DNA of 64,000 bases from Alphaproteobacteria bacterium (lineage in GTDB: Bacteria; Pseudomonadota; Alphaproteobacteria; Elsterales; Elsteraceae): positions 62,001-126,000 of the forward strand of contig RDXE01000038.1 of NCBI GenBank assembly GCA_004292755.1. The letters run 5' to 3'. The notes below the pieces were generated by a model, which was not told the origin of the DNA, ran no database searches, and worked only from the letters and a program-made list of their open reading frames with translations. Position numbers and translations under genes: made by a program. Positions 10,898 to 39,349 of this stretch are shown piece by piece (within the stretch, counting starts at the first letter, position 1; each line of letters opens with the position of its first letter).

Positions 10898-10973
10898 TGG
10901 TGGACCTGATCAGAGTCGAACTGACGACCTCTGCAGTGCGATTGCAGCGCTCTCCCAACTGAGCTACAGGCCC
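10898..10973 (-). tRNA. tRNA-Ala (anticodon CGC)
   Basis: A 76-nt cloverleaf on the minus strand. The acceptor stem GGGCCTG pairs with CAGGTCC and includes the G3-U70 wobble that marks alanine tRNAs. The D arm is GCTC-AGTTGGGA-GAGC. The anticodon stem CTGCA/TGCAG encloses loop ATCGCAC, giving anticodon CGC for codon GCG. The T arm is GTCAG-TTCGACT-CTGAT. ACCA is encoded at the 3' end. Confidence 0.95.
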
Positions 10974-11035: not shown

Positions 11036-11416
11036 TCAGCGAGTGACCGTCGGCTGTGCCGCGGGGGCTGCAGCCGGGGCGGTCGCAGGCGCGCCGGTGG
11101 CCGGGGTGGTTGCGGCCTGACCCTGGCCCTGGCGCGGCTCCCCAACGGTACCGGCACCCGTGGCTTGACCCTTGGCGGCACCTTGGTTGGTGGCGGCAGG
11201 CGCCGTGACGGTCGGTGTGGTGGCAGCCGCCGGGCGGGCCGGAGTGGCCACGGGGGCGACCGTCTGCCCACGGGGCTGAGCTGCGGGGGCAGTCTGCGCC
11301 ACTGCCGGACGCTCAACGCGTTGCGGGGCCTGGCCGGTGGTAGCGGACTGACCAGCCAGCGCCGGTGCAGCAACAACAGTGGCAGCAGCGATCAGAGCGG
11401 CAAACGTGCGGTTCAT
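11036..11416 (-). CDS. Small secreted Ala/Pro/Thr-rich low-complexity protein
   Basis: A 126-residue protein with a clear Sec signal peptide (MNRTFAALIAAATVVAAPALAG). The mature part is almost entirely Ala, Pro, Thr, Gln and Gly (for example TPARPAAATTPTVTAPAATN) and is probably disordered. No family recognised. The start is supported by the signal peptide and by AAGGAAACC eight to sixteen bases upstream. That ribosome binding site lies inside an unusual interleaved inverted-repeat leader (11423-11483), which suggests translational control. Frames on the opposite strand here come from the same biased composition. Existence of the protein is likely; its function is unknown. Confidence 0.65.
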   Translation of the reverse strand: MNRTFAALIAAATVVAAPALAGQSATTGQAPQRVERPAVAQTAPAAQPRGQTVAPVATPARPAAATTPTVTAPAATNQGAAKGQATGAGTVGEPRQGQGQAATTPATGAPATAPAAAPAAQPTVTR

Positions 11417-11422
11417 CGGTGT

Positions 11423-11483
11423 GGTTTCCTTGGTTGGCGGGCGGCGACTGCGCCGCTCGCAAGGAAACCAGTAGCCGCCCGCC
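11423..11483 (-). promoter_or_regulatory. Leader with two interleaved 10-bp inverted repeats covering the ribosome binding site
   Basis: Read 5' to 3' on the minus strand: GGCGGGCGGC (11483-11474), TACT, GGTTTCCTTG (11469-11460), 14 nt, GCCGCCCGCC (11445-11436), AAC, CAAGGAAACC (11432-11423), ACACCG, then the ATG. Elements 1 and 3 pair perfectly, as do 2 and 4, giving an A-B-A'-B' order. The second stem contains the AAGGA ribosome binding site. A third 6-bp hairpin (GCGGCG-CAGT-CGCCGC, 11456-11441) overlaps element 3 and would sit inside the second stem. This is a plausible two-state translational switch or pseudoknot. No known riboswitch class is recognised. Confidence 0.6.
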
Positions 11484-11545
11484 CGCTAAACAGGGCGTTA
11501 CAAAGAGTTCGGCCGTAAAGTTGCCGTGATCGCCTGTCGCTCGCC

Positions 11546-12472
11546 TCAATCCTCCAACGGACCAGCCAATGGCTTGTCGCGCACCAGGGTGCCAGCCCCG
11601 CGGGCGGTGAACAGTTCCAGCAGGATGACGTGGGGGACGCGGCCATCCAGAATGACCGATGCTTCGACGCCGCCCTTCACTGCTTCCATGCAGGTTTCCA
11701 CCTTGGGAATCATGCCGCCGGAGATGGTGCCGTCATCGATCAGGCCCTGAATGTCATCGGGCGTGAGGTCGGTGACGAGGTTCTTGTCCTTGTCCAGCAC
11801 GCCTGCCACGTCGGTCAGCAGCAGCAGCCGCGATGCCTTCAGGGCGGCCGCAATGGCACCCGCTGCCGTGTCGGCGTTGATGTTGTAGGGCTGACCATCG
11901 GGGCCGGTACCCACAGGAGCGACCACCGGGATGATGTCCGACTGGGTCAGGACATGCAGCACATGGGGGTCAACACTCTCCGGCTCGCCAACATAGCCGA
12001 GGTCGAGCACCTGCTCGATGTTGCTGTCCGGGTCCACCTTGGTGCGGGTCACCTTGCGCGCCTTGATCAAGCCGCCATCGCGACCGGACAAACCGACGGC
12101 GACACCACCGGCCTCGGCAATGTCCGCAACAATGGCTTTGTTGATCGTGCCTGCCAGCACCATCTCCACCACCTCCACGGTGGTGGCATCGGTGACGCGC
12201 AGACCATCAACGAACTCGGAGCGGATCGACAGCCGCTCCAGCATCTTCTTGATCTGCGGCCCACCGCCATGGACCACCACGGGGTGGATGTCCAACTGCT
12301 TCAGCAGCACGATGTCGCGGGCGAAATCCTGCGCCAGCTCGTCGGAGCCCATGGCGTGACCACCGAACTTCACCACCACAATCTCGCCGTGGAAGCGGCG
12401 CATATAGGGCAGCGCTTCCGTCAGCACCGATGCTTTGGCGAGCCAGTCAGAGGCGTAGTCGTAGGCGGCCAT
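11546..12472 (-). CDS. argB: Acetylglutamate kinase
   Basis: ATP-dependent phosphorylation of N-acetylglutamate, the second step of arginine biosynthesis, in the cytoplasm. About 308 residues. Family motifs: [10 protein letters not shown] (ATP phosphate binding), [10 protein letters not shown] (glycine-rich loop), [32 protein letters not shown], and SGGMIPKVE near the C-terminus. Start 12472 was chosen because AAGGGAGA precedes it and family proteins begin near ASDWLAKA. An upstream ATG at 12505 overlaps the preceding gene's stop (ATGA) and would add 11 residues, so it remains possible. Co-transcribed with the zincin gene upstream. Confidence 0.95.
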
Positions 12473-12501
12473 GCCGTCTCCCTTCGTCAGCGGAACGATG
12501 A

Positions 12502-12918
12502 TCATTCGGCCTCCTGCTCCAACCGTTCCATATCCTCATCCGAGAAGCCGAAATGGTGGCCGATCTCGTGGATCAGGACATGGCGGACCAGGGTGGCAAG
12601 ATCCTCCCCCTCCTCACACCACAGATCGAGGATGGGGCGGCGGTACAAAAACACCATGTCGGGTTCGGTGGCGACCGAACTGACCGAGCGTTCGGTCAAC
12701 GGTCTACCGCGGTAAAGACCCAACAGCTCAAACGGCGAGTCCAGTTGCATCTCTTGCTCGGTGTCGCTGTCGGGGAAATCTTCCACCCGCAGCAGCACCG
12801 TGCCCGCGAGGCGCCGAAGCTCTTGTGGAAGGGTCCCCAACGCCGCCTCGGCCAGAGCCGCGATGTCGTCCAGAGTGGGAGGAGTGCCGAAGGCGGCGGC
12901 AGCCGGAAGCGATGGCAT
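12502..12918 (-). CDS. Zincin-like metallopeptidase family protein
   Basis: A short predicted zinc metallopeptidase of the Zincin_1 type (138 residues). The zinc motif [14 protein letters not shown] is intact (HEIGH at 117-121, then the conserved D/E residues). Preceding segments [23 protein letters not shown] are typical. The start at 12918 ([10 protein letters not shown]) has GGAG somewhat far upstream; the frame runs 22 codons further without support. The stop overlaps an ATG of the argB frame. This pairing suggests one transcript. Substrate unknown; such proteins are widespread but uncharacterised. Confidence 0.85.
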
Positions 12919-38779: not shown

Positions 38780-38782
38780 GGA

Positions 38783-39349
38783 TCAGCGCCGTTGCAGGTT
38801 GCGCTGCGCCTCATCCCGGCTGACGGCAAGGCCAGCCAGAATGCGATAGGAGGAGGCAGGACGGTCGGCCGCCAGCGGGATCACATGGCTTAACTCGTCT
38901 GCGATCACAATGCGGGTCTGATTGGTGGCAAAGGTCACATCGCCTGCGAATTGCTCGCGCGCGATCACTTGATCGGCGGAATCGACAATCGCAACCAGAT
39001 AGGTGAACTGCGCCTGTCGATCTGGGTTGGCGGGTCCGCGCGTCACTTCGAAGGAGACCCGAACATCCACGGTCACCGCGCGACCGCGCCGGTCGAATCG
39101 GCATTCGCCGGTGTAGCCCTGCATCTCCACCCGCAGGATCAAGTCCGCGGGGTCGCCCGTGTTGTTGCGAAAGCTTTCTTGACGCTGGCCTTCGCGCAGA
39201 ATGCCGACCTCCGGGCAGGCGGGCGCATTGGCGTCGGTGGTGGAGCCACCGAACAAGCCACCGATCCCACTGCCGCCGCAGCCAGACAGGGCGATGATCA
39301 GACCCGTGGCTGCAAGAGCCCGTCGTGCGCTGTTGATCCAACCCATCAT
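38783..39349 (-). CDS. Predicted lipoprotein of unknown function
   Basis: A 188-residue protein with a lipoprotein signal ending LSGC (C24), followed by a Gly/Ser-rich linker (GGSGIGGLFGG) and a conserved-looking soluble domain: ILRVEMQGYTGECRFDRRG, VTVDVRVSFEVTRGP, QAQFTYLVAIVDSADQVIAR, ending ASSYRILAGLAVSRDEA. The start at 39349 has AGGGCGG upstream; nine further codons to 39376 are open. No family name can be given. It is divergent from ispH. Confidence 0.75.
   Translation of the reverse strand: MMGWINSARRALAATGLIIALSGCGGSGIGGLFGGSTTDANAPACPEVGILREGQRQESFRNNTGDPADLILRVEMQGYTGECRFDRRGRAVTVDVRVSFEVTRGPANPDRQAQFTYLVAIVDSADQVIAREQFAGDVTFATNQTRIVIADELSHVIPLAADRPASSYRILAGLAVSRDEAQRNLQRR

Follow-up and report, generated by a model that had tools for sequence, protein, structure and literature searches.

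A predicted hairpin over the ribosome binding site of a small exported-protein gene in an alphaproteobacterium

Two interleaved inverted repeats lie within 61 bases directly before the start codon of a small gene in the 64-kb stretch of alphaproteobacterial DNA analysed here (henceforth the window). Their position raises the question of which pairing the mRNA leader adopts, and whether that pairing closes the ribosome binding site for good or alternates with one that leaves it free. Our best reading is a hairpin restricted to the genus, standing before an orphan secreted-protein gene. The leader probably acts in cis to damp translation by hiding the Shine-Dalgarno (SD) sequence, and this hidden ribosome site is its best-supported element.

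Arms, gene context and rarity of the arrangement

The first-pass annotation had described two perfect 10-bp inverted repeats, interleaved as A-B-A'-B', upstream of a secreted-protein gene, with a third hairpin nested in the closed form. We recovered all four arms and the third hairpin as described (Table 1). In the RNA, which is read from the minus strand, the arms follow one another as A, B, A' and B' from 11483 to 11423, directly before the ATG, with AAGGA 10 nt ahead of that codon.

Table 1. Features of the leader and its surroundings (window coordinates; arm letters as in the RNA and on the plus strand).
Feature	Coordinates	Strand	Letters in RNA	Letters on plus strand	Remark
tRNA-Ala(CGC)	10898..10973	-			downstream of small gene
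Small gene, 126-aa protein	11036..11416	-			start hidden by hairpin in the predicted fold
ATG start codon of small gene	11414..11416	-	ATG		also present in congener
Arm B'	11423..11432	-	CAAGGAAACC	GGTTTCCTTG	holds Shine-Dalgarno AAGGA (11431-11427)
Arm A'	11436..11445	-	GCCGCCCGCC	GGCGGGCGGC	contributes the greater part of the nested hairpin's 3' strand
Nested hairpin	11441..11456	-	GCGGCG-CAGT-CGCCGC		3 further bp past an A.C mismatch; kept in congener
Arm B	11460..11469	-	GGTTTCCTTG	CAAGGAAACC	anti-Shine-Dalgarno arm
Arm A	11474..11483	-	GGCGGGCGGC	GCCGCCCGCC	all-G/C competing arm
argB (acetylglutamate kinase)	11546..12505	-			upstream of small gene; TIGR00761, E 4e-77

The product of the small gene is rich in Ala, Pro and Thr and carries an N-terminal signal peptide (MNRTFAALIAAATVVAAPALA). 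It had no match in Pfam or NCBIfam, and a protein search of 60 relatives returned only the protein itself. No equivalent signal-peptide gene was found by a crude filter among the neighbours downstream of argB in genomes of the family or in about 30 further alphaproteobacteria. The gene is thus an orphan, with a homologous start seen only in the congener described below. The distance from the argB stop to the ATG is 129 nt, and neither a terminator-like site for argB (i.e., a GC hairpin followed by a U run) nor a sigma-70-like promoter site was found in the region.

We then asked how unusual the arrangement is by surveying 304 kb in total, namely the window together with a 240-kb portion of contig C2. 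Taken singly, perfect 10-bp inverted repeats spanning no more than 61 bases occurred 9 times in the window and 29 times in the 240 kb, with 4-8 per 64 kb expected from Markov sequences. The interleaved pair occurred once in the window, and was found neither in the 240 kb nor in five 64-kb Markov sequences. The interleaved pair, which the first-pass annotation had called improbable by chance, is unique in the 304 kb, whereas single 10-bp arms are fairly common. The leader is single-copy in its own genome and, since the hairpin occupies a single genomic locus, it is not a repeat element. A search for a repeat element or a wider RNA family returned only this locus and the congener, and when 289 genomes across the class were searched, the two weak matches obtained were unconvincing on inspection.

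Predicted closed fold

The minimum free energy (MFE) fold of the minus-strand leader pairs B with B' around the nested hairpin at -42.7 kcal/mol, and only 1 of 200 dinucleotide shuffles folded with a lower energy (z -3.12). In this predicted stable fold the SD is paired: at 37 C the pairing of AAGGA amounts to about 99% (unpaired probability about 0.01), which bears out the earlier proposal that B-B' pairing buries it. Of 95 gene starts called crudely in the same genome, 3% had leaders as stable and 4% had an SD as hidden, while none had both.

Competing fold and folding during transcription

When A-A' pairing was enforced, the best energy was -35.6 kcal/mol, so that the closed fold is ahead by about 6-7 kcal/mol; the ensemble difference between the two forms was 6.3 kcal/mol at 37 C and 3.0 kcal/mol at 60 C. 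In this fold the SD is not part of the A-A' stem and takes part only in weak local pairs. An alternative structure with a free SD, incompatible with the closed one, is thus predicted, and the enforced-fold computation agrees with the first-pass annotation that A-A' pairing also excludes the nested hairpin.

In the growing transcript, the A-A' form was the MFE structure until B' was nearly complete, at which point the closed form took over; with the ribosome footprint held open, the A-A' form stayed at -35.0. Predicted equilibrium SD accessibility fell from 0.67 to 0.01 over 6 nt of further transcript. The refolding barrier was about 23 kcal/mol along nested paths, an estimate that ignores strand displacement via a transient pseudoknot; such a barrier would be a deep trap, if reached. 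In a simplified co-transcriptional model (a custom master-equation script with few, pseudoknot-free states and 25 ms per nt), the SD was accessible in anything from 0% (k0 2e5) to 35% (k0 1e7) of cases. Given that the trapped-open fraction hinges on the rate constant, these computations permit a kinetic open state but do not establish it, and the A-A' fold is a possible kinetic intermediate.

Comparison with the congener

The comparison of leaders was made with one congener, the family and order comprising nine genomes including the window's own. The congener (L018/L007) is a MAG in which the contig breaks off within the small gene, and the remaining part of that gene was not located in G001 via the tRNA region. 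Its argB is 93% identical to that of the window, and it has a homologous gene start (MNRSVALLFAAATIAASPALA) with a conserved protein N-terminus, as well as a homologous leader.

In that leader both B and B' are altered, and the predicted stem still encloses GCGGCG/CGCCGC and covers part of the SD, which is only about two-thirds paired in the prediction. When the differing columns were randomised, about 3% of trials reached this number of outer pairs, and 0.2-0.9% reached both the number of pairs and the low energy; these nulls (P about 0.002-0.03) are post hoc and refer to one sequence pair. The B/B' pairing predicted there is shifted in register and bulged, not a case of clean base-for-base covariation, the isolated B x B' duplex was marginal (P 0.09), and a one-sequence covariance model scored the congener at 21.9 bits vs 22.5 for the antisense strand of the window. 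The A-A' duplex of the congener was at the level of shuffled sequences (-13.0 vs a shuffled mean of -12.9, P 0.46), i.e., the two folds are not both conserved in this one relative. In this one homologous leader, a stem over part of the SD is predicted again in a shifted register, while A-A' is not kept.

As the A-A' stem is absent in the one relative, a two-state switch has no evolutionary support. The two-state translational switch put forward by the first-pass annotation also requires an open form that is about 6 kcal/mol less stable, and it is not our preferred reading. With A-A' not kept, an ordinary translation damper is the likelier reading and the switch is unproven.

Alternative explanations

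A kinetic version of the switch would use A-A' pairing in the nascent RNA to leave the SD free until B-B' closes, limiting translation to new or refolding-delayed transcripts, and some factor could shift the balance between open and closed forms. The order in which the two folds become optimal, the sharp loss of SD accessibility, the high nested-path barrier and the upper end of the modelled open fraction all speak for it. Against it stand the dependence of that fraction on the rate constant, the omission of strand displacement from the barrier, the shuffle-level A-A' energy in the congener and the ease with which repetitive G/C arms pair in a 65% GC genome, and we regard it as improbable. Bolder still, and correspondingly more doubtful, would be a bistable leader under ligand or protein control, in which A-A' opens a translation window for a genus-specific secreted protein before B-B' shuts it. 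The evidence supports only what these readings have in common with the damping hairpin, namely the hidden ribosome site. Alternatively, the hairpin may be fortuitous, drifting without a regulatory role in the GC-rich intergenic DNA of both genomes. This would fit the frequency of single 10-bp repeats, the single relative and the marginal isolated-helix statistics, but the hairpin is placed exactly on the SD, lies at the top end of stability among the 95 gene starts and has a similar predicted fold in the congener despite the altered sequence; we therefore consider a chance origin unlikely, if slightly less so than the kinetic switch.

Two established classes of regulatory RNA are less probable than any of these. 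FourU-type thermometers pair the SD with a U-rich arm, and the UUUCCUU that pairs with the SD here resembles them in outline, suggesting that heat might melt B-B' and free the SD. However, AAGGA sits in a perfect 10-bp helix and is predicted to be largely paired up to 65 C, so that no release occurred in silico within the physiological range, and no ROSE or fourU match was found at the gathering threshold or with the cut-off relaxed to E 10; a thermometer is thus very unlikely. The most remote candidate in our view is a pseudoknot or ligand riboswitch in which A-A' and B-B' form together. Its appeal is that H-type pseudoknots have their arms in the order A-B-A'-B', as in the one that SAM-II riboswitches of alphaproteobacteria place over the SD (PMC9373788). 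Such a fold, however, leaves connecting loops of 4 nt and 3 nt to bridge two 10-bp helices, and on this inferred geometry we judged the long-range pseudoknot of the first-pass annotation to be strained. In addition, A-A' is not conserved, the downstream gene is not recognisably metabolic, and an Rfam search of the leader found nothing at the gathering score, SAM-II included, with low-scoring matches that were incoherent. This agrees with the earlier view that no known riboswitch or thermometer class is recognised.

Proposed role and known leaders

For the damping hairpin, we infer from the folding models that the stem would form in cells and lower translation; the arms, folds and energies, and the similar predicted fold in one relative, are computed directly. 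Arm B would pair with the SD region in B', enclosing the small GC-rich hairpin, and most mature transcripts would then lack a free ribosome site. The small exported protein would be translated at a low level, or only upon opening of the stem, for which candidate openers are unfolding by the ribosome or S1, an RNA-binding protein, an sRNA, or ribosome loading on nascent RNA. A-A' pairing would be a lineage-specific alternative that at most keeps part of the nascent transcripts open briefly. If real, the leader would be a further case of a bacterial mRNA leader controlling its own ribosome access, here for a gene encoding a lineage-specific exported protein, and its perfect, readily mutated arms would offer a clean test case for co-transcriptional vs equilibrium folds.

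By analogy, SD-sequestering hairpins and the time-limited MS2 leader are functionally the closest known cases. In the Helicobacter pylori aapA3 mRNA, metastable hairpins sequester the SD (PMC6733600). Here, too, ribosome entry is predicted to be blocked by an anti-SD arm bound to the SD, whereas the closed hairpin is the stable end state of folding, the leader has no known antisense RNA and the gene encodes an orphan exported protein. The MS2 maturation-gene leader, as far as it is described in PMC6733600 (citing van Meerten et al. 2001), allows time-limited translation before its closed fold forms; on that account a transient fold could likewise free the ribosome site here before stable closure, although the transient A-A' fold is unconserved and its population model-dependent. 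The SAM-II riboswitches share with this leader the arm order over the ribosome site and an alphaproteobacterial host, but differ in that the present leader has very short loops, no family match and no metabolic gene. The likeness to ROSE and fourU thermometers lies in the U-rich arm paired with the SD, and the difference in the long perfect stem, its predicted stability and the missing family match.

Further observations

Upstream of the hairpin on the minus strand (11483-11518), a block containing TTACGGCC, TTGTAAC and GTTTA.CGG is common to both congeners and could be a promoter or regulatory sequence, although no sigma-70-like site was found. Elsewhere in the window, a predicted ORF at 38782-39349 (minus strand) has an SD-like GAGG with an unpaired probability of 0.01 and a leader fold of -35.8 kcal/mol.
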